This document shows positions 26,779 through 55,879 of a stretch of 64,000 nt of DNA, one piece after another. A program made the translations under genes and the position numbers. The DNA lies in contig VJWN01000006.1 of assembly GCA_007644065.1 (NCBI GenBank), positions 1,116,001 to 1,180,000 on the forward strand. The letters are read 5' to 3'. The notes beneath the pieces are model-generated. The model saw only the letters and a program-made list of their open reading frames with translations. It was not told the DNA's origin and searched no databases. Position 1 is the stretch's first letter. Every line of letters starts with the position of its first letter. This DNA comes from Margaritispora aquatica. Its lineage: Eukaryota; Ascomycota; Leotiomycetes; Helotiales; Discinellaceae.

Positions 26779-28603
26779 TGTTTTGGCAGATGGAAGGTTA
26801 TGATCGAGGGTAGATCGGCGATTCTTGTTTTGCAGTCGCGAGAAGTATGGGATGGAATAGAACGCAGGATAATTTCGCGGCGCGATAACCAGTTTGGCCA
26901 GCTCAAAGCGCAGCTTGAGGATTTTCTGCAAATTATAATGAGTGGTATGCGAAATATTACTTCTCGTGTTCGTGATGCGATGCGTGGTTTGAATAAATTT
27001 CGCGAATTTTCACTTGAAAGCCCGCGCTTTCAACCGCTTACAGCCTTGTACTCGACTTAATGAACTTCTGCACTCTGTGGAAGATTAAAAAAATTTCTTT
27101 CTTATGAAGTGCTCTAGCAAGTTCTGTTCTACCACTTGCATATGCTCAAGGTAGATTCTTCGTCTTGTTGCTCCTGGACTTCGCTTAATTTTGACTCTGC
27201 ACTGAGACCCAGTCCCATGAAAATCTGAAGCTGTCATGGATATCGAAGAGCCCATTATCCACTATGAGTAAGATCTGAGCGCAGACTTTTTTTTATCGTG
27301 GCAATCTCATGATAGCCTCGTTAGCCTTTGTAAGTGGAATATATACACCTCAAGTATCCTAGATTTTCTAAGGAGATAAACATATCCTAAATTTCAAAGG
27401 CAAGTTCAAAGATAACACAGCTTGTTCATTAAAATCACAAATAACCCACATATAAACCAGTCCGCAGGATATCTGTCCAGACTTCTGAATCTTTGAGCTC
27501 CAGGACAATGTCTATCACAAACCTCAGCGTGAACAATCAAAATGAATCAACGCTTGAAAAAGGTGTAGACGGTTAAGAAGAGTCAGCTGACACTTGGTAT
27601 AAATACCTGTAGTTAAGAGACCTCAATTAGCAGTGGTCGTAGGTCTTCAAAGTCCCCACCCGCTGTGCACAGAATCTCAAAGGGGAAAAGATGTAATTCT
27701 GTCCTAGGAATCTTTATCCAGACAGCCAGCTGTGGTGTAAAGACATTTGGTAACAGATCTCTAAGGAGCGAACAGTCTAAAAGCATTACATCCAAAGTAG
27801 AATAGATCAAAATGACATTGCCAGAGAAAGACAAGGTTTCTGCAAAATTGAGGACAAAATTCAACATCGGAATGACTCAACATGCCTCTCTATGAGGACC
27901 AATTCAAGTTGAAAGACACAGCATTACCACTGCCATACCTCTGTCTGCCACATTGTCTTGATTTCTACTAATTCGAGGATACGCTGGCATCAACATCGGG
28001 TTGACTCAGCCTGATGAGTGTCGGATCGATGGAGTTGCCTTCCTCTCTACTTTTACGTCTCATCTCCAAGCCATCCCAGTCTGCAGCATCAAACACAGTT
28101 CCAACAAGAGTAACATCGGGATCAAGTCTATTTATATTGAAAGCGCATGCTTTTGCAGATCAAGAGAATCATCTTATCCTCTGCTTATCGGCTTCATCTA
28201 ATTTCTAGCACAATTATTGAGCTGGCCTGCGGATTAGACTACAATTTGATTTCCAGATCAGTCTGCCAGGTCCACGCTTACAGTATGGATGTATTGAATC
28301 AAGCTCCACCAGAAGCAGCATCGGCAGACATGTCTTCTATCCCAGCAGTAAGTACGACAAATGATCGAAGGTTCAAGTTGCTGACACACAAAGCAGATCT
28401 AATCTGCGAGAGAGAAAGGGGACAAAGGACAAGGTTGCGACTGTGGTTGGGGAAAACCCAAATTTTGCGATACATAAATCCAAGCCAAGCGAAAATTATC
28501 GTATCCCATTACAACCACCATTACAACCACTTAAGTTTACATGGTGTAATGGGAAACCTCCCGGGTAGTTTTCCCGAGTTCAAAATTTGTTTCCAGCTTC
28601 ATC
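26779..28603. other. Intergenic, no gene supported
   Basis: AT-rich with scattered ORFs of 60-165 codons, none with recognisable composition. It precedes the RNA-like tandem array. Confidence 0.4.
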
Positions 28604-28795
28604 TATATACATTTCTTTCCACAAGCACAAAGGTTAAATAAGTCTTGCGAGCCATCATGGCACCCTGCGAAATAAGCATAATTGTGTGACGGCCTTGGTT
28701 GCTTGAAATGATATGATCTCGAAACCCCAAGTGGGAGAATTGCGTGATTCCCCAAGGCTATGTAACTGGACTTCCCAGTACCTTGTAAGACAAGG
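28604..28795 (+). ncRNA. Structured-RNA-like unit, tandem copy 1 (possible novel ncRNA or tRNA-derived element)
   Basis: TATATA at 28604-28609, then the conserved block from 28625 containing GGTTAAATAAGTC and GCGAAATAAGCATAAT. Predicted helices: GCCAT/ATGGC in the 5' domain; a 67-nt tRNA-sized domain 28692-28758 closed by GCCTTGG/CCAAGGC (7 perfect pairs) with TTGCTT directly after the 5' arm; inner CCC-AAGT-GGG; ACTGG (28765-28769)/CCAGT (28775-28779); terminal hairpin CCTTG-TAAGA-CAAGG (28781-28795). No ORF fits this conservation pattern. Strand is inferred from the promoter-like TATA and the 3'-terminal hairpin. Confidence 0.5.
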
Positions 28796-28812
28796 TAATT
28801 TCTTGATATTAT

Positions 28813-29006
28813 TATATAAATTTCATTCCACTAGTACAAAAGTTAAATAAGTCTTGATGTTCGTCATTATGGTACCCTGCGAAATAAGCATAATTGTACG
28901 CCGGCTCTGGTTGCTTGAAATGATATGATCTCGAAACTCCAAGTGGAAGAACTGCGTGATTCCCCAGAGCTATGTAACTCGCTTCCCAGTACCTTATTAG
29001 ATAGGG
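28813..29006 (+). ncRNA. Structured-RNA-like unit, tandem copy 2
   Basis: TATATAA begins at 28813, 21 nt before the conserved block at 28834, as in copies 1 and 3. The closing stem of the tRNA-sized domain is now GCTCTGG (28904-28910) with CCAGAGC (28964-28970), so the same positions are paired with different bases from copy 1. The inner hairpin is TCC-AAGT-GGA (copy 1: CCC/GGG). The terminal hairpin is CCTTAT (28992-28997) with ATAGGG (29001-29006), including one G-T pair. Unchanged words: GTTAAATAAGTC, GCGAAATAAGCATAAT, TTGCTTGAAATGATATGAT, GCGTGATTCCCC. Confidence 0.5.
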
Positions 29007-29029
29007 ATATATTTCATTTCTTATTATTG

Positions 29030-29222
29030 TATATAACTTTCTTTATAACAGTACAAAGGTTAAATAAGTCATGACGTTAGCCATACTGGCACCATGCGAA
29101 ATAAGCATAATAGTACGCCAAACTTGGTTGCTTGAAATGACATGATCTCGAAACCCTTAGTAGGAGAATTGCGTGATTCCCCAAGGCTATGTAGCTAGCT
29201 CCTAGCACCTTGTAAGACAAGG
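29030..29222 (+). ncRNA. Structured-RNA-like unit, tandem copy 3
   Basis: TATATAA begins at 29030, again exactly 21 nt before the block at 29051. The closing stem AACTTGG (29121-29127)/CCAAGGC (29181-29187) keeps the inner five pairs but has lost the outer two. The inner hairpin is CCT-TAGT-AGG. The next hairpin is GCTAG-CTC-CTAGC, where copy 1 has ACTGG/CCAGT. The terminal hairpin CCTTG-TAAGA-CAAGG is identical to copy 1. The loss of two outer closing pairs may mean this copy is decaying or uses shifted pairing. Confidence 0.45.
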
Positions 29223-29649
29223 ACCTATCCACTTTAACAAGTATTTCTTTTTACCTCCGCTTTATCTAAACAATAACGCCTCACACGTCTAACAAGCACA
29301 AACAACAGACGATATTCTTTCTCGAGTCATATGAAATGTTCATTGGTTCTACAAGTAAAAGCAAACGCAAGTTCTCGACCACTCGATCTCTCAACGTCTC
29401 ACCTTTAACCAACGTGATGGAAACCTTAGCGTGTTTTCTTTCAATCGTTGATTTTGCAAACACGGCTTTGTGTACTATCGATAGGATCATGATAGACTTT
29501 CATTCGCTTGTCATCAAATTCATCACATCTCTTGCGCCTCCTGTTCCATGTTCGGCTTCAGGCGACAACTGAATGGTAGACTCCAGCTGTGGTGCCAAAG
29601 AAGAACCATAGAACAGTTAGAAGGAGCCTTTAGATAAAGCCCATATCTA
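29223..29649. other. Spacer between RNA-like array and transposon relic
   Basis: No gene supported. Short ORFs on both strands at 29281-29572 have no recognisable domain. Confidence 0.45.
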
Positions 29650-38060: not shown

Positions 38061-39083
38061 ACAGGATCCGAAGGAAGCTAACTAAAAATGACATCGTACA
38101 CCGCACCGCTTTTTTTTGCTAACCAGCGGCGACTTGCAGACGGTGTGGTCTCATCTAGAGCTTTTCAGGTCCCAGTCAATTGCTAGAGCAAAAGGTAGTG
38201 ACAGCTAGAATGCTCGATACTTCATGTTGTGGATAGACATGACCCTGGGCTCTCCACAATCTCCTCTTTCCCACACGGAGGAACAGGACTAGCAAACGAT
38301 CATGACGTTTAGAGAAATCAAATCCCACGAGGGGGAGAGCGAGAGCGAAAGAAAAGAAGAGGCCCAGAAGCTGGTATGTCACTCATCTTGAGCATTGATC
38401 ACTAGGAGGGTTTCGTCTTTCAATTAACCTTTCGAATCCGACGTCGTTCGCCAACTTCGCCCAAACTCAGAGGAGTGCAACTTAGCGGGACATAACTTTC
38501 CCAGAGATTGAAATAAGACTCTTCTCGCTCGTTTTACTGCATTGCCATTGCATTGGTCCCATTCTATCAACATTCATTGGTTTTTGTTCCTGTTCTCAAC
38601 TGGCTGAGAAAGACGACACGCCGAAAGACCGACGGCAAGTGACATTCCACACACCAAATTATTACCATCCTGATACAGAACGCAACAAGACCAGAAATAA
38701 ACTCCTCGCACTTCCGACAAGAATAATCCATAAGTCGTGAAGACATTACTCTCATTGATATCTCACGGCTCGCACCTGGGGAGATTGCTTACTCGTCCTG
38801 ACGTATTGCCCAATTGGCATCCTTGCTGCGAAACGCTGTCTCTTTTGGGAATTCAGGTTACGCCTCAATCCAACTGCTTTTACACTCGAAAGCTCCTACT
38901 TAAAGCTGAAGCTGGAAGCAAAACGATTACTTTGAAGTGCACCAGCGTTCCTTCCAATACTTCGTGGTGGCAGAATTTCACCATCAGCTTCCGGTCAAAC
39001 TCAATTTGAACTATATTTCTTCTCATCACCAACCTCCATCAACAAAACACCCGCCCATCCAATTGCTCTATTTCATTTTCGAT
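38061..39083. other. Intergenic, nothing recognised
   Basis: Promoter region of the sterol reductase. Small ORFs only. Confidence 0.45.
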
Positions 39084-40623
39084 ATGGAGGCAATTATCCT
39101 CCCTTCTTCTTCCCTACACAATAGCATCGACAGCCCCCATGTGTCACCCGAGAAATTGAACGGTTCCGCCAGACCTCGACTAGCTTCTTTCTCTAATACT
39201 CGTGATTCGAGCATCTCCTGGGGACGACATCATCATGGCTCATGGCTACATGCAATAGGATGTGGAAGCATCGTTTTCTGTTGTCCAACACTTGTGATCT
39301 TCCTTTGGATCTCACTTTCGTCGTTCAGCGGTTCGTTTTCTAGAGCCTATGAGACAATGACACAATTGGGCCCAATTGCATTCTTTTCGACTTACGCTCC
39401 ACGACCAGACGGAAAAGCGAGTCTAGGATATGGAGCTTGGCTGCTCTTCCAAGTTGCTCTTTATCAATTCCTACCAAGTAAGTTGAGCAGTGGTCAACTG
39501 ACTCCTGCGGGTAATCTTTTACAATACCGAACAAATGGACTACTCGCCTGGATTGTCACTCATGTCATTTTCGCGTTATGTGCGCTACACGGCATTGTAA
39601 ACCCAGCAATTATTGCCAATAACTGGCAGGGACTTCTAGTGGCAGCCAATGTATTTGGGTTTTTGTTGTCAGGATTGGCTTATGCAAAGGCTGTGCTGAG
39701 TCCAACGCACGCAGGTGATAGGAAGTTTAGTGGTTAGTTGTATTCTTAACTTTGTTTGGAGAGAAATTGTGAACTAAAACAAGCAGGATCAACAATGTAC
39801 GATTTCTACATGGGAGTCGAGCTCAATCCAAGATTCGGAAAATACTTCGACTTCAAGCTTTGGACTAATGGTAGACCAGGCATAATTGCATGGACACTCA
39901 TGTAAGAGTTCATCACATGATTTGTAGTTGTTAGCTAATGTCCCCAGCGACTTTTCCTTCATTGCATACCAGTATCACTTGCACGGGTACATTACCAAGT
40001 CAATTCTGTTGACATCATTACTCCACACCATTTATGTTGTGGATTTCTTTATCAACGAAGATTGGTATCTCAGGACAATTGACATTTGTCATGATCATTT
40101 CGGCTTCTACCTTGCTTGGGGATCCGTTGTCTGGCTGCCAGGCGTCTACACTCTTCAGACACAATACTTAGCTGTCAATCCTGTGATCTTGTCCAATTTC
40201 CAAGCTGGTTTCATCCTCTGCGCAGGCGTTGGTGGTTACGTTTTGTTTCGGTCTGTCAATCACCAAAAGGATCTAGTACGACGAACCAAGGGGGATTGTA
40301 TGCTTTGGGGCAAGCCCGCAAAGGTCGTCCGAGTCAAGTATCGCACGAAAGACGGACTCGAACACAACAGCATTTTGCTTTGCTCTGGCTGGTGGGGATA
40401 TGCGAGACATGTCAACTATTTTGGCGACCTCATTCTCTCATTCTCGATGTGTGCTACTTGTGGCTTCCAGAATCTATTGCCATGGACGTACGCCATTTTC
40501 ATGACCACACTCCTGATTCATCGATGCTGGAGAGACGAGGAACGCTGCTCATTGAAGTACGGCAAGGGATGGGAGCAATACTGCAAGCAGGTGAAATGGG
40601 TTATTGTTCCTGGAATTTATTGA
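39084..40623 (+). CDS. Sterol reductase, closest in motifs to delta-7 (7-dehydrocholesterol-type) reductase
   Basis: Polytopic ER enzyme of the ERG4/ERG24/DHCR7 family that reduces a sterol ring double bond with NADPH. Exons 39084..39732, 39787..39901 and 39948..40623 (introns 54 and 46 bp) give 479 aa, the length of DHCR7. Landmarks: [20 protein letters not shown] split by intron 1, [20 protein letters not shown], signature [19 protein letters not shown], and C-terminal [20 protein letters not shown] then YCKQV. The stretch [22 protein letters not shown] resembles DHCR7 (HLLPYFYIIYM...HRCLRDEHRC) more than ERG24 or ERG4. The N-terminal ~45 residues are soluble. The subfamily rests on motifs only; C-14 reductase is the alternative. 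Confidence 0.85.
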
Positions 40624-42160
40624 TTGCACTGTTTCCATAGACGGATAGAGTATAGTGATAGATTTTGTTTGGTGGGTTCGTGGAGGGTATTTTATTATGG
40701 TGAAGAAAGGCTTCGCTTGGACTGTGAGGCACTGGATGGTTTCTTTTCCTATGGTGATTGCTTATACTTAATTGGGTATATTAAACAAAAGGAAAAAAAC
40801 AAATCCCTATCTTATAGGGTGCTGAATAGCTACAGAACCAGGGGATCACTCAGCGATCTTTCAAGACGACCGACATCCTTTCTATTAAGCAACCTGAATT
40901 CGCCTCTCGTGAGGTACGACATTACGCTCATATTGCTCCCGTCAGGCTTACTTGATACAGCCGTGGACTTAAGAAATTAGGTTTGAAAATTGAATTGAAA
41001 TTGAAGTTGATGAAAATTGGAATTTGGCACTGGCCCTTCCCAACTGAGCCAACCAGGCCTAGCGGACTCAATTGAGGTGGTTCTGTCCGGCTTAAGCAAA
41101 TTTATAATCGAAGCGATAATCCTCCGACCGTGCTAGAAATTGAGTAATCTTTGGTTTGTTGACATGACAACAAAAGTTCTTCAATTTTTTCTTATCCTTC
41201 ATGACTTCAAGTTTCTGTCATATCAGAAATTTTCAGTGCGAGTTTTCTCTTCTGCAATCCAGTAGCAATACCGCGCGTTATTTCTGGTACTGAAGGAAAA
41301 TCTGCTGCCAAGTTGAAGTTTCCACCTGCGGCTTGCTTAATGGGACAGGCTATGGCATTCAACTAATTTCCAGTCAGTGTGTCTTCTTGTAAGTTCAAGT
41401 TTTCAACGAGACTTGCAGAATTAGGGAGAAATATTGATTCTCTCTTTTATTTGTTCAGAACAAATAGGTCTTCACAGGCCAAGGTGGGTATGTAAGACTA
41501 CCTCTGTCTTCCACACTTCTTGTCCCATGACATATAAGCCAGGCTGGAAGTATGTAATACCAATCAACTGCCTACCAGAACTTTGGCAGACCTCTCGATT
41601 AATGCATCGATCAAGAGTTTTGAACTGAGCATAAGACTTCAGACTACACCATCTGTAACCTTTTGGACTGCCTAGTTCATCTCGAAATCAACGAAGGTAG
41701 TAAGATAATAGCAGTCATTCTACATCTACTAGGAAGAATTGCAGCATGAGATCACTCGTGAATTAAAGCACAATAAGAGGTCTTGGAGCTACGACTTTCA
41801 AGCTCCAAGAATTCACTTTCCTAATCTGATTACAAACCATATCTTCAAGTATCGATAAACATAACTATCGGCGTAGGTATGCGTGTCACAGATACTTCGA
41901 AGCGCTGCTGCTCTACTAGATTTGACAGCTCTCAATCATTTTGCAATTCATGATTTTTGTTTCTGATTTCCATTGCAATTTTTTTTTTAATTCTGGCCTA
42001 GACTACGTCATGAAGTTTGTATATAAACTACAGCTCTCAATCATTTTCATGATTCATCAAGCTCTCATTCCGTTTATCTTAAAGAATCTTTAGCCTGTGT
42101 CGATATTTGTGCTTCAGTCATTCTTACTCAAGACATCTCCCTACTCTAGCACTTCTTGTC
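40624..42160. other. Intergenic; short direct repeat
   Basis: No gene supported. The word AGCTCTCAATCATTTT occurs twice about 100 bp apart (near 41929 and 42032), and an A/T homopolymer run lies near 41980. Otherwise featureless AT-rich sequence. Confidence 0.45.
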
Positions 42161-47061: not shown

Positions 47062-48644
47062 ATGGCTTTGACAGGAGCAGAGATAGCCAAGCACAACTCG
47101 AGAGAGTCGTGCTGGGTGATCGTGCATGGAAAAGCTTATGATGTGACAGAGTTTCTACCTGGTATGCTATCGGTTTGGGAGACATTGGGTACTGCTAATG
47201 ATTTGCAGAGCATCCTGGTGGACCTAAGATCATTTTGAAGTATGCAGTAAGTGACGATTGAAACCAACAGCTTATAATTGCACTAATAGACAACCAGGGC
47301 AAAGATGCAACCGAAGAATACGAACCAATTCACCCCCCGGATACCTTGGACAAGTTCCTAGATAAGTCGAAACACTTGGGCGAAGTAGACATGAAGACAG
47401 TTAAGCAGGATGTCAAGATTGCATCACCAGACGAAGATGAAAGGCAGCAGAAGATTGCGAACATGCCAATCTTGGAAGAATGCTACAATCTGATGGACTT
47501 CGAGGCCGTGGCGAGAGGCGTCATGAAGAAGACCGCGTGGGCATACTACTCCAGCGGTGCGGATGATGAGATTACGATGCGAGAGAACCACTCCGCATTC
47601 CACAAGATATGGTTCCGACCACGGATTCTGGTGGATGTGGAGAAGATCGACTTCTCGACCACGATGCTAGGCACGAAGGTCGATATTCCATTCTACGTTA
47701 CTGCGACTGCATTAGGGAAACTGGGAAATCCGGAAGGAGAGGTTGTCCTGACCCGGTCGGCTAAGAAGCATAATGTGATTCAGATGATTCCGACTCTTGC
47801 TTCTTGCTCGTTCGACGAGATTATGGACGCTGCTGAGGCAGACCAAGTGCAATGGATGCAGCTTTATGTTAACAAGGATCGTGCAATTACCAAGAAGATT
47901 ATCCAGCACGCTGAGTCTCGAGGTTGCAAGGGTTTATTTATCACAGTTGATGCACCTCAACTTGGGCGGAGAGAGAAGGATATGCGATCAAAATTCACGG
48001 ATACTGGCTCCAATGTGCAAGCTGGAGATAAGACTGATACCTCTCAGGGAGCAGCTCGAGCGATTTCAAGTTTTATTGACCCATCTCTGAGCTGGAAGGA
48101 TATTCCGTGGTTTCTATCAATCACCAAGATGCCCATCCTTCTGAAGGGTGTCCAGAGAGTCGAAGACGTGATTAGAGCCATCGAAGTCGGTGTCCACGGT
48201 GTGGTGCTCTCAAACCACGGAGGCAGACAGCTCGACTTTGCGCGTTCTGGGATTGAGGTTCTGGCTGAAGTCATGCCTGTGCTCCGGGAGAGAGGATGGG
48301 AAAATAGAATCGAGATTTACATTGATGGTGGTGTGAGGAGAGCGACAGACATTATTAAAGCTCTGTGCTTAGGTGCAAAGGGTGTCGGTATTGGACGGCC
48401 GTTCCTCTATGCCATGTCTGCTTATGGACAGCCTGGTGTTGACCGTGCTATGCAGCTCTTAAAGGACGAGATGGAGATGAATATGAGACTGATCGGATGC
48501 TCGAGTATTGATCAGTTGAATCCGACTTTGGTCGATACGAGAGGACTGAGTATGCACACTGTTTCTGGACCATCAGACACTCTTGGTTTGTCTGTCTATG
48601 ACCCTCTGGTCAATCCAAAGGAGAAGACACGGGCAAAGCTGTAG
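47062..48644 (+). CDS. Flavocytochrome b2-like FMN-dependent 2-hydroxyacid dehydrogenase with cytochrome b5 domain
   Basis: Exons 47062..47161, 47209..47246 and 47298..48644 (introns 47 and 51 bp) give 494 aa. Residues 1-~75 form a cytochrome b5 domain: heme ligands H35 in FLPEHPGG and H58 in EPIHPPDT. The FMN alpha-hydroxyacid dehydrogenase barrel follows: [11 protein letters not shown] (~127-137), [21 protein letters not shown], and SNHGGRQLD with the catalytic base H353 and R356, then [16 protein letters not shown] and GIGRPFLYA. This is the architecture of yeast L-lactate dehydrogenase (cytochrome b2). No mitochondrial presequence is seen; the protein begins at the b5 domain, so a cytosolic location or an unseen upstream exon is possible. 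The likely substrate is L-lactate or a related 2-hydroxyacid. Confidence 0.9.
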
Positions 48645-49989
48645 GTGAGCCTCTGAAGGAGATGCCATTTATACCAGTGTTATCTGGAATGTATATAATA
48701 TAAATGTGTGACATTTCAGCTGCTGATATGCCGGCATTAAGCTCAAAACATTTGTCTGACATCTTCTGCAATTCTGGTTTCAAACAACACATGGATCTCA
48801 AACCTATAACTGATGACCCCTCCATTCTGGCCATTCTGGCCATTCTGGCATTATTCTGGAACTCCCTTACCTCATATGCACTCAGCTCATACAGTCAGAT
48901 ATTCGCAAGCCTGTGTCACCAGACCGATCACCAACCCCATCTCATCCCAATCGCATGCCGACAACCGTGTTTAGCCCTTTCTTCCTTCACCCATCCCCCC
49001 GCATGATTGGTGGTGGTGATCACTCCGATTTTGAGTTTGAGTCTTGGAGACAACCGATAGCCTCGCATGCCCATCAAGGATTTTGATTGAGCCGGGCCAT
49101 GCGCCAAAAGGCGCGTCATAAAAAATCCTTGGGGCTCGGGACAGGCTAATTATATATTCTATTCTCGACAATTAATAAAATCCCTATTATATTGTCTTTC
49201 TTCCCCGCTGACACGGTTCAGCAAGTGATCGTTCCTTGTTTCGGACTCGTAGATTAAATTACTCGTTGATGCGTTGCTGAGTTTTGGTGGTCTGTTCTTG
49301 TTCTGTTTTGTTTGCTTTGCTCTGGCTGTTTACTTTGCACCTCCACCTCCCACCTCTTTCGCTTTCTCAACACCACATTCGCAAAGTCTTGCTCGCAGTA
49401 ATCGCATTTCTTACCAGAAGGTTTCCGGAAGCAAAAGGAAAGACGACACGAAACAGGGAATTCCATCAGAACAGACGAACACCATCCTGCGTGTCTCGCA
49501 CAGCACAACAGTCGGTGAAGACCGAGGCTGAAACGCAAAAGCTCGACTGGAGACTGGGTCGGAAGCCTCGAGAAGCTGCAGCGTGCATGGGAGGAGGCGC
49601 GAGAACATGAGACACGGCGACGAATAGTTACCTGCAGTTGGTTGTCGAGACGAGAGAAACAGGCATACATACGAGCACTGGTAGCTAGCTGCAGTTATCT
49701 ACGGTAGATCCAGTATCGCATCTTGGTTTTCCTGTCCCGATCGGACGACGAAGTACCATACGGGATCGACCTGCTTTCGTGCACAGGTCTTGCCACTGCC
49801 GTGTGTGCGTGCGAGAGCACTGCTGAGAGCGCAAGCCACGGCTTTGATTCTCCTGTCGGTTGCGAGGATTGGAGGTTCTCGATCTGACTTATATTTGGGT
49901 GCGAGTCCACGAGGAGGATTCGGACGGCCTTGCATCGAAACCTGAAGCTTGAGCGACTATTCTCAAAGCCATCAGAGGAAAATTAGAAA
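48645..49989. other. Intergenic; 9-bp triplication
   Basis: CCATTCTGG occurs three times in tandem at 48822-48848. The rest is promoter and 5' leader of the Rab-family gene. No gene supported. Confidence 0.45.
48822..48848 (+). repeat. (CCATTCTGG)3 tandem repeat
   Basis: Three perfect adjacent 9-bp copies in the spacer downstream of the flavocytochrome gene. Confidence 0.9.
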
Positions 49990-51271
49990 ATGGCACAGTC
50001 TCTGGAAGCTAAGATCGTGGTGCTGGGTGCGCAAGGTGTGGGGAAGACCTCACTCGTGCATAGGTAAGTTCGTATTCTGGATTCTCCCTTCCGTTGCAGA
50101 TTCAGTGGTGCCGCTGCTGCCGATACTGAGAGGAACCGCTCCATATTAGCACATGGCTAACTCTTCGCAGATATGTCAAGAACCAATTCTCGCCCGCGAG
50201 CACGACTTCCACGGTTGGCGCAAGCTTCCTTACCAAACGAGTGGTGGATGACGAGAGCGATACGGTGGTACGGTTACAGATTTGGGATACGGCTGGACAG
50301 GAACGATTTCGGTATGTTCACAAGTAATTTTGCTTTATTGGTGCGAAGTCTATTTGCGCAAAGCTAAGACGAGCTACATGCATATGACACCTGCCATCTG
50401 AACTTTCCTACCTCCCCATAGCGCAAACTTGACAAACAGAGCTAACCACCTACCCACTTCTAGCTCCATCTCACGGCTCTACTATCGCGGCGCAAACGCC
50501 TGCATCCTCTGCTACTCCATAACCGACCTCTCCTCCTTCGTCGAAATGGGCGTCTGGCTCACCGAGCTGCGGCGCAACCTCCCACCCGACATCATCCTCC
50601 ACGTCGTTGGCACGAAATCCGACCTCGTCGCTAAGACGCCTGCATTGCGCGAAGTCCCCTTCGAGCGATGCATCGCCTACGTAGCCGAGAACCTCGCCCC
50701 CGGGATGTCGAGCACGCCGCCCGCAACCGCAACCCCAGGAGGCGTATTGGATGGCTCTGGCGCGGGGAGTTCGGGAAGCGTAGGGAACGGCATGTACTAC
50801 CGGGGATTCTTTCAGCAGGGTGGTGGGCATCGGAATAGTGGCGGCGGAGGCGTGGACCCCATGGACGGCGCGCGCAGCCCGAGCAGTAAGCGCAGCAGCG
50901 GCTTCTGGGGCCAGGAGATCGGATGGGATTGCTGCCACGAGGTCAGCGCTGAGAGCGGGGAGGGCGTCGAGGAGGTGTTTCGCGTCATCACGCGCAAGCT
51001 GGTCGAGCAGAATCGGAAGCTGCAGGAGCAGTTGCAATCGGCGGCGCAGACGCCTGGTGGTATGAACACGCCTGGTGCTGAGGGAATGGGAGGTGAGGGT
51101 GGCTATTTCGATGGTATCATGCGGCCAGGTGGAAGCTTTAGGGTGGGCAGGGATCGGAGGAGTTGGTTTGGGGTTCCCGTGGAGAGTTACCTTGAGAATG
51201 GTGGGGAGAATTCTGGGAATGGGGCGGTGGGACAGCAGGGGCAGGTGAAGACGTCGAGGAAATGCTGTTGA
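49990..51271 (+). CDS. Rab-family small GTPase with a ~70-residue insert, C-terminal CC
   Basis: Exons 49990..50063, 50171..50311 and 50464..51271 (introns 107 and 152 bp) give 340 aa, against ~200-220 for a usual Rab. G1 is GAQGVGKT (13-20). The effector region is STVGASF, like the TIGAAF of the Rab5/Rab21/Rab22 group. G3 is WDTAGQERF (63-71), followed by YYRGANACILCYSI. G4 is TKSD (122-125) and G5 is SAE (233-235). Between G4 and G5 a Gly/Ser/Pro-rich insert (about 153-222) is present. A Gln-rich linker and a long tail end KTSRKCC, the double-cysteine geranylgeranylation signal. Likely role is endosomal membrane traffic. Exact orthology among fungal endosomal Rabs is uncertain. Confidence 0.85.
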
Positions 51272-52785: not shown

Positions 52786-53715
52786 GATTGCGTTGCGGCG
52801 GTATGTTCAAGTGGTGTAGTGGGGAGGTGGAATGCGTGCGATCTGAGTTGGCGGATATGGTGGAGTGCTTTCTTTAGAGGATTGTCTGGAGGTGAAACTT
52901 GATAAAGTCGCTGCCTCGCACCGCCTTCGTCACAGGCCAACTGGTTGGGCGATTGGCCCGAAGTGGAAGCGGTGGTGCCGGGGTTGAAGTGGCTCAGTTT
53001 GAGTCACGAGGCGCGAGACGCGCTTAAGTCCGACGACGTGTCTTAGAGTGAGTGTATTGAGTGTGTTGAAGATATGTTTGGATGATTCCATATACATTCT
53101 TTCGGTACTTTGGTTCGTGTGCCTTGTCTTATATTATCCCCTTCACTTTCGGCCTCAATGCCACGTACGAAGTGCGTGTAGCTTAACCAAGCGAGAGCAT
53201 GCCTCAATGCCGTGCTTCATTCCTTCACATTCATGACAGTAGCTAGTGAGATTACATTTAACAGCCACTGGGAGCACAGCCCATACATGAATTACTCTGG
53301 GAGAGGATGGTCCAAGAGATACTACCATGGACCATACATCGCAATTTGTGCCATAACACAAGTGTTTGTCCCGTCAAGTTGATCATATGAAGGATAATCC
53401 AGGCAAAGAACTTCACTATCCTTACTTGTTTCTTATCCTATGCTTGCATTATCTATAACCGTTGCTATTTGCGTTTCAAGATGAGGATTCCTGAGATACT
53501 CTATGGTTGCTAGGGAAATCGTTCAATAGTTCACTTTCGACTTTTTTTCTCTCGAAATATTCACTTCTTCGCGTCAGCTCGCTGCATATAAATCCATTTG
53601 AACACCCCAGATCGCTCCACCATTTGGGCTTAGTTGGCTCAATTGATAGGCCTACATGTAGTAGTTTTTCCGACTTCGTTTTCTTCGCATTGTTTCATAT
53701 GTCCACCCCTCACTC
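52786..53715. other. Intergenic, promoter of YKT6; nothing else recognised
   Basis: GC-rich near the YKT6 start, then AT-rich, with short ORFs lacking domains. Confidence 0.45.
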
Positions 53716-53896
53716 TTATACGTGATGTAAGTCCTCACTGGAGGCAGTATAAGCATGATAGAGCACCCCAGTAATGGGGCGAATAGGGTTGCTTAGTAGA
53801 TAGGACCTCGGATACGATCCTTAACCAGAACACTGGGTGATCCCCTTATTCTGTAGCTGGTCAACTTGATCAGTACTCTGTAAGACAGAGTTTTTT
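53716..53896 (+). ncRNA. Structured-RNA-like unit, solitary diverged copy 4
   Basis: Shares with the 28.6-29.2 kb array the ordered words TAAGTC (53728), TAAGCAT-AT, TTGCTT, GA-CTCG-A-AC and GTGAT-CCC. It has almost completely different helix arms: closing stem AATAGGG (53782-53788)/CCTTATT (53844-53850) of a 69-nt domain; CTGGTCA (53857-53863)/TGATCAG (53867-53873); terminal CTCTG-TAAGA-CAGAG (53876-53890) followed at once by TTTTTT (53891-53896), like a Pol III terminator. Extra hairpins are CCTC-ACTG-GAGG and CCCC/GGGG in the 5' part. TTGCTTAGTAGA resembles a tRNA A box. No good B box is present. Confidence 0.45.
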
Positions 53897-55879
53897 AGTG
53901 TTCATATTTGTCTTTTGTTTTGCATTTTTGCTCTCTCATCTCCACCGGTCATTCATGGTCTATTGTGAAGTTAGCATGAATAGACAGGATGTCTAATTGG
54001 GTTGATAAAATCTACTGCCACATGGTTAGGTATATACGTGCCCACAAACTAATGACGACAGCGAACAGTGTTGGAATAACTGTTAAATAGGCCTACACGA
54101 CCATCTAAGCGGTAACAGAAACTCGTGTCAACTATCGGTTGCAGTTGATGAAATCAACAGAGACTTACGTAGTTCATAATGCCATGCTACACAAAAATAA
54201 AGACCGTTAGCAACAAGTATAAGATCAGGGAACTTCTTCATACCCACCCACCAGTTGAATTACGTAGGCATGTTTAGAATTTCCCTTGCCACTTGACAAG
54301 ATTGCCACATCATACCACCTCAAAGCCGTTCTTGTCCCTTCCACTCCTCACGCCACAAGTGGTTTTCGTTGCCTCACACTGAAATGGTTCAATATGTTGC
54401 TGCATACATGCATAGAAGGGTCCAACGTGGACCGATACTCATAGCAATTATGACTGTAACGCCATAGCGTCTGAAAGTGGAAGGACTAGCTTGATATTTT
54501 CAGCCTAACGACAATTTAAGTATAACACGCATCACCATTTACCAGCCCGAAGCTCCCAGCACAGCCATAAGTCACCACTTGTTCTAACTTTCTCTTTGCC
54601 GGCTGTGTAAATATTCCCGGCAAACATTTGGACTTCTGGCGATCCGCTCATATAATCAGTTTTGTTGATCCACTTCCAAAGATCAACAGTAAGGGAATAT
54701 CACATCATCGCCTCGATGTCATGCTCAGCCTTTATGATTTGTCTCCGCTCGGAAAATACATTGCTCAGCAAACATAAAGGAATCATCGTAATCATCCTTC
54801 ACCCAACAGCGTGAAAGCTTTTAGTCCCGGAGGGTTTGCCCAACCAGTTATCTTTGATATAGTTGTGTAAAATGCCATTGCCGAAGCAGAGAGAAGACAA
54901 TCATCAAGTACTTCCTTGATCCAGTCTTTGAGTTGACTCGCCTGAGCTGTCGATTACAAAGATCAATGTACCACCATCAAAGTGGCCGACGAGAACGTAG
55001 ATATATGATATATCCAATGAGACATGCACTTGTCCATCCATGTTGATAACCTGTTTGGCATACCTAACTGCGAGCACCGCAGCAGGGTCGATAACAAGCA
55101 ATTTGCTTCCGGGAAATTATTTAGGCTGAAGATGAAAAGCTCATTGTTGTGGAGCTCGAGCGCAAATTCGACAGTTGTTTCCCGCTCCTGAGAACGTGGT
55201 GATATTTCTATCTAAAACTGAGCAGCGGAGCATGGGTCCAGGCCAGACTTGACATCAGCTACTTTGACTCTTACGATAGGAACCAGTCAGTTGAGTCTCG
55301 TCAGATGAGAAACGAGGCAACGAGCTCAAGAAACGAGCTCCATCGAAAAGCCAAATCCACTTGCAGCGAATGTGTGTGCCCTGAGCAGACGTTGGCATAC
55401 CAATCTCTGCTTCACTGGCTGCAAAGATTATCATCAATCTTGATTTGAGGAGCTGCTAGATATCTGCATTTTGTTCATCCGAAGGATTTTATTGTGCAAA
55501 TATGAAGCACACCACCTCGTAAATTTCGCTTCATTGGCATCCGGCAGTGTCTTGTATAACTTGAAATGGATAAAGGGAGCAAACAGCTCAAGTCTTTGAG
55601 ATGATACATTTGTTTGGTTGCTCATTATTACTCCTCTATTGTGCAGAAGTATCTAGAATCATTGAGGATATTCCAGCTTTATGGTTTTCTGATGTTCCTA
55701 TAGCAGGCTTGCCTGTCATCGCCTCTTCTGCTCGAGATTCATGACTAGAGCAGCAACTTCATCGGCCTACAGCTTCTCAAGAAAAGCAGATCCAGTGATC
55801 CCTCTTGTCCAGAACAACAGTAGCTGCGCGAGTGGGAAAATCGCCTTTAATCTTGCCTGCGTAACCAGTGAACGCTGTA
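53897..55879. other. Intergenic; fragmentary minus-strand ORFs
   Basis: Minus-strand ORFs at 54904-55101, 55255-55437 and 55434-55625 have moderately protein-like composition. They are separated by stops and frame changes. They could be relics of one gene, but no family is recognised. Confidence 0.35.

Follow-up and report, generated by a model that had tools for sequence, protein, structure and literature searches.

Three direct repeat copies, designated u1, u2 and u3, were found at positions 28604-29222 of the window, i.e., the 64,000-nucleotide stretch of the Margaritispora aquatica genome analysed here, both by reading the sequence and by a repeat search. The copies follow one another at spacings of 212 and 217, and the first unit of about 192 bp corresponds to 28604-28795. 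BLAST within the window matched u1 to u2 and u3 with E-values of 1.2e-51 and 4.3e-51, respectively, and GCGAAATAAGCATAA is the same in all three units. Two homologues, y and x, lie separately, about 12 and 25 kb off, y being on the opposite strand, and the five members found sit within 25.3 kb. The sequence-only reading had described a tandem array of three head-to-tail units of about 192 bp and had pointed to a fourth copy at 53716-53896. The three units were borne out by both approaches, and the fourth copy (x) is genuine, since it scores with a model trained without the x sequence. The term "tandem array" holds for u1-u3 and does not extend to x or to y, which stand alone; y had gone unmentioned. 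The members are as follows:

28632-28797, + strand: u1, first tandem RNA unit (conserved core 28690-28795; terminal hairpin 28781-28795)
28841-29008, + strand: u2, second tandem unit (core 28902-29006; terminal hairpin 28992-29006)
29058-29224, + strand: u3, third tandem unit (core 29119-29222; terminal hairpin 29208-29222)
53720-53897, + strand: x, separate homologue (core 53780-53890; T6 at 53891-53896 directly after it; E 3.2e-5 with the u-trained model)
40793-40978, - strand: y, separate homologue (core 40901-40805; T7 from 40799 to 40793; BLAST match to x; E 1.6e-5 with the u-trained model)

The stretch of about 1.5 kb before u1 (27020-28540) contains no open frame of 150 aa except 28141-28641, for which no Pfam match was found. 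The y locus is arranged tail to tail with an ERG4/ERG24-like sterol reductase gene (38910-40623), and its T7 lies 170 nt from the end of that open frame (40623-40793). Positions 47262-51271 hold a gene for cytochrome b2 and, after it, one of the Ras family. Among 120 matches listed of 7179, the best named match of the cytochrome b2 protein was from Drepanopeziza (89% identity), followed by Hymenoscyphus and Diplocarpon; Drepanopeziza and Hymenoscyphus belong to the Leotiomycetes, Helotiales. A 685-aa protein of Chlorociboria (P0017) bears both FMN_dh and Ras domains, and the cytochrome b2/Ras pair may be either a fused gene model or a gene neighbourhood that has been conserved.

Homology, covariation and fold

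A BLAST search of x (53700-53920) against the window retrieved y (minus strand, 40951-40828, E 1.4e-7), and at E 0.01 it did not join the u units to x or y. The covariance model R2, trained on the u1-u3 sequences only, was run over the window and recovered the three training units, followed by y (36.5 bits, E 1.6e-5) and x (35.1 bits, E 3.2e-5), with the reservation that x and y were already known when its structure was drawn and that the E-values are rough owing to a shortened calibration; no further match appeared in the window up to E 5. With the model R1, built from all five members and run over the window with filters off, the members scored at least 78.5 bits, and the next three matches (10.3, 9.9 and 9.7 bits) were taken as chance. 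The units u1, u2, u3, x and y are homologous.

When the five sequences were aligned to R2, standard pairs made up 98.0% of 102 cells and 12 of 21 pairs showed a change on both sides, in an alignment that was fitted to the structure and has close relatives (u1-u3) in three of its five rows, which makes it a strong but not a full phylogenetic test. Shuffled alignments were paired in 84.5% of cells with 6.6 ± 1.6 double-changed pairs, and none of 500 reached the observed values; sliding the partner columns by 1 to 3 lowered pairing to 39.0-50.5%. The count of further pair types was not above that of the shuffles (175 of 500). The claim of the sequence-only reading that these repeats are structured RNA with compensatory base changes is supported and extends to two more divergent homologues, x and y, recovered by R2.

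By hand count, the closing stem P3 is paired in 38 of 40 cells and double-changed at six of eight positions; y needs one bulged base, and u3 is mismatched at two of the eight positions (A.C and A.G), which the sequence-only reading had not mentioned. The terminal hairpin H5 forms a perfect 6-bp helix in all five members, with an AAG triloop (once TAG) and three double-changed pairs out of six. The bulged hairpin H4 has one double-changed pair beside a conserved bulged A, and two of the three pairs in the u units' inner hairpin are double-changed. The stem letters quoted earlier were correct for the closing stem (GCCTTGG/CCAAGGC and GCTCTGG/CCAGAGC), for the inner hairpin (CCC/GGG, TCC/GGA and CCT/AGG) and for the terminal hairpin (CCTTG/CAAGG and CCTTAT/ATAGGG). 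An extra hairpin common to x and y (CCCC/GGGG vs CCTC/GAGG) was not seen in the u units, and the 5' hairpin of the latter, GCCA/TGGC, varies on one side only. When the 3' arms were swapped among the five members, 2 of 120 permutations reached the own-arm total in the case of P3, and 4 of 120 did so in that of H5, the lowest values possible given that some arms are identical.

Folding energies were close to those of shuffled sequences (MFE z-scores of -1.12 for u1, 1.45 for u2, -1.19 for u3, -1.52 for x and 0.10 for y), and the evidence for the fold therefore comes from covariation rather than from stability. Because paired letters have changed together, the fold has very probably been kept by selection, and we regard the existence of a structured RNA family with high confidence. 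A coding sequence was rejected, as stops occur in all three forward frames of all five members; on the antisense strand, u1, u2 and y have one stop-free frame each.

The elements GGTTGCTT and GTGAT are invariant across the five members. Among the 3201 ungapped window pairs that were scanned, a set from which the TAAGCA strand drops out because a gap splits it, H5 and GGTTGC/GTGATY were the only ones to pair in every member. TAAGCA (TGAGCG in y) pairs with TGCTTR at six of six positions in every member, via one-sided changes only. Tentatively, we propose a pseudoknot TAAGCA:TGCTTR, in which TGCTTR would have an alternative partner to the local GGTTGC/GTGATY helix. The suggestion that TTGCTT marks the start of an internal A box turned out to be poorly supported, with better A-box matches present in the upstream leaders; either GTGA or the TAAGCA further upstream would, as its pairing partner, explain the invariance of TTGCTT equally well.

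Putative transcription signals

The search for promoter elements used TRGYNNARYNGG, which we take to be the A-box consensus. The TATAAA elements of x and y and the TATATA of u1 were read from the sequence. The candidate elements are listed below:

28542-28553, + strand: A-box-like element of u1, TGGTGTAATGGG, 0 mismatches to the consensus, 97 nt before TAAGTC
53635-53646, + strand: A-box-like element of x, TGGCTCAATTGA, one mismatch, 93 nt before TAAGTC
41040-41051, - strand: A-box-like element of y, TGGCTCAGTTGG, 0 mismatches, 101 nt before TAAGCC
53587-53592, + strand: TATAAA of x, 48 nt upstream of the A box
41101-41106, - strand: TATAAA of y, 55 nt upstream of the A box
28604-28609, + strand: TATATA of u1, exactly 35 nt before TAAGTC
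28813-28818, + strand: TATATA of u2, 35 nt before TAAGTC
29030-29035, + strand: TATATA of u3, 35 nt before TAAGTC
29248-29252, + strand: T5, candidate end of the u array, the sole run of at least five T in 28500-29400 on this strand

The two strands of the window together hold 12 perfect A-box matches, two of which are those of u1 and y. It should be noted that matches with one mismatch are common (139, i.e., 60 + 79), and extra one-mismatch boxes occur in x (at 53626) and in y (two more). B-box-like matches are poor. Those of u1 (at 28577) and y (at 41007) have three mismatches each, a level found at 785 + 803 places in the window, and x has no B box within three mismatches at the expected place. 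In the SRP RNA gene of the same genome, a TATA run lies 22-31 nt before the matched 5' end. The genome also contains two U6-like loci, L075 and L076 (81.8 and 75.2 bits).

At the 3' side, a T6 directly follows H5 in x, and in y a T7 begins six nt beyond H5; runs of at least six T number 19 on the + strand and 18 on the - strand of the 64 kb. No run of at least four T follows u1 or u2, and only the T5 follows u3. The leaders themselves contain a T5 in x and a T4 in u1, which could stop RNA polymerase III early. From the T-run ends, the A-box leaders and the TATA elements taken together, we infer that RNA polymerase III is the likeliest transcriber of the family, and it probably makes these RNAs.

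For the u array, these elements allow two promoter models. One of them is that u1-u3 are made as a single polycistronic polymerase III transcript, started from one leader upstream of u1 and cut into three RNAs. The A-box leader upstream of u1 and the lack of any run of at least five T from this leader to 29248 are consistent with it, but the window has on average 0.98 T5 runs per kb, and at this density such a lack over about 0.7 kb is not significant. Moreover, the TATATA kept at exactly 35 nt in each unit suggests separate promoters, and we consider the polycistron the unlikelier, though tenable, arrangement.

Alternative identities and copy number

The view that no named RNA family covers these units was upheld by Rfam 15, which gave no match above the gathering cut-off over the window. 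At a relaxed E-value around the members, the best scores came from irrelevant families and were 17.2 bits against a cut-off of 39 for u, 16.9 against 35.6 for x and 16.2 against 55 for y. No described family was recognised in the literature searched, although one could still exist in print. The family is new as far as these searches reach. A tRNA was rejected, as ARAGORN (bacterial code setting) found no cloverleaf in the window.

Among the other identities considered, the one that keeps most plausibility, while still improbable, is that the members are precursors of microRNA-like small RNAs, like the polymerase III-made milRNAs of Neurospora. In the account given of those loci, milR-1 to milR-4 depend on polymerase III and are closely followed by T runs; the TATA-like elements of milR-1 serve this polymerase, with no A or B box predicted (PMC3547838). 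Such likenesses in the signals are offset by the shared structure of the present family, which consists of conserved loops and short helices and includes no long hairpin or duplex.

A tRNA-derived SINE would combine an A-box head, an unrelated body and a T-rich tail, and would have spread by retroposition. The order of elements in x and y is of this kind: a tRNA-like A box (TTGGCTCARTTG) comes first, then a body and a terminal T run. Against this stands the copy number, for which the genome (42.36 Mb, 49 contigs) was searched. BLAST with u1 returned u1-u3, and the x and y queries each retrieved nothing but themselves; as these searches miss known members, they are weak evidence of absence. A first motif pattern derived from all five members found the five and six other matches (reversed-pattern control, 1), and a second found the five and one other (control, 3). 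Of two patterns based on x and y that tolerated three mismatches, pattern A recovered these two members and no other match (control, 0), and pattern B recovered them together with two others (control, 3). The nine other matches were scored with R1 and none was meaningful. A weak model match in L082 (9.9 bits) was taken as chance. No member was detected by R1 and R2 in 200 kb of flanking sequence (100 kb on each side), where weak matches of 11.2, 11.0, 12.7 and 11.0 bits were ascribed to chance. Covariance models cover the window and these flanks, and the genome-wide count rests on motifs, so that a member lacking both motifs could escape. In public collections, one IMG/VR and 29 GTDB stretches carried the motif pattern, and one of these 30 reached E 1 with R1 (17.2 bits, E 0.41), a match put down to chance.

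Thus, just five clustered copies were found in 42.4 Mb by motif searches that detect all five members or, in other cases, x and y, with the proviso that strongly diverged copies could escape. Exact flanking repeats of at least 8 nt are absent at x and y, the flanks of the u array share one T-rich 8-nt match, ATTTCTTT, and copy-to-copy differences keep pairing. Five paralogues in 25.3 kb, three of them in tandem, point to local duplication rather than retroposition; a SINE on the move accounts for such clustering less well. A SINE origin therefore appears quite unlikely.

An unusual snoRNA family, of the box H/ACA or C/D type, is slightly less probable still. Clustered paralogous RNA genes of such size are common among snoRNAs, and every member has ACA or ATA at a distance of three nt from where the hairpin ends. 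However, this triplet lies within the covarying H5 helix and is not single-stranded, as regards H/ACA RNAs, and no C/D box pair was seen by eye. No Rfam snoRNA scored above the cut-off; under relaxed settings, one archaeal H/ACA family reached 16.9 of 35.6 bits near x. That the members are diverged copies of RNase MRP, SRP, U6 or RNase P RNA, which likewise are polymerase III-made or structured RNAs, is very improbable, as the MRP, SRP and U6 genes are located elsewhere in the genome and R1 has no match at those loci; the RNase P RNA search gave no match anywhere, controls included, and is uninformative.

Proposed nature of the family and comparison with known systems

Based on the above results, we lean towards the reading that the five members are one family of structured noncoding RNA genes of about 170 nt, most likely made by RNA polymerase III, whose products act as RNP RNAs. 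The RNP role, taken by itself, has roughly even chances. As the loci adjoin different genes on both strands, the family is not a cis element of one mRNA, and its role is most likely that of an RNP scaffold or guide.

We suggest the following pathway. RNA polymerase III would be recruited by an upstream TATA element and an A-box leader (x, y and u1) or by the unit's own TATATA (u1-u3), and transcription would end at the T run. The leader would then be removed, and the end of the RNA, presumably the H5 hairpin with a short U tail, may be bound by La. The elements GGTTGCTT and GTGATYCC inside P3, together with the conserved bulged A in H4, possibly serve as a protein-binding or target-pairing site. 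The members themselves would have arisen through local and tandem duplication.

On a more speculative level, the cluster of five genes could represent a new class of polymerase III-made RNP RNAs in Helotiales. Its core, closed by the invariant strands GGTTGCTT and GTGATYCC, may alternate between the local helix and a pseudoknot formed with TAAGCA further upstream; the RNA would have a protein partner of its own and serve the cell in a way that has no yeast counterpart. We rate this combination as rather doubtful. Structured RNA genes without an assigned function are seldom found from one fungal genome alone. The present family offers strong internal covariation, clear 3' ends for x and y and five paralogues at one locus and, if confirmed, would extend the set of fungal RNA families, probably along with an RNP not known before.

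In gene plan, the family is like the yeast RPR1-type polymerase III genes in having an A-box-like element in a leader before the conserved RNA and a T run at the end; it differs from them in a body without an Rfam match, a poor B box and five paralogues. SNR52 shares the RPR1-type plan. According to the description of yeast RNase P RNA, cleavage at the 5' end removes its promoter elements (PMC5095917). The Neurospora milRNA loci, as described, are similar in their TATA-like elements, their T-run ends and their occurrence in a filamentous fungus (PMC3547838), but our family has no long hairpin precursor and instead shows conserved loops and several covarying helices.

Two surveys of fungal RNA structure are also relevant. 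Li and Breaker (2017) presented 15 fungal RNA motifs as structured candidates, characterized as ribozymes, mRNA-linked motifs, an AU-rich hairpin and a C/D-like, mostly intronic RNA, and these descriptions set them apart from the family (PMC5640933). Gao, Jones and Rivas (2021) reported conserved intergenic structures 1-4 and H/ACA candidates, standalone and identified by covariation in Pezizomycotina, and our family resembles such standalone structured RNAs (PMC8216456). Structures 1, 3 and 4 are described there as single hairpins with an H box, unlike the family, and the main text makes no mention of tandem, pseudoknot, paralog or polymerase III (PMC8216456). Nothing in the descriptions given by the two surveys matches the family; at the level of sequence, identity with one of the intergenic structures, structure 2 above all, is conceivable.
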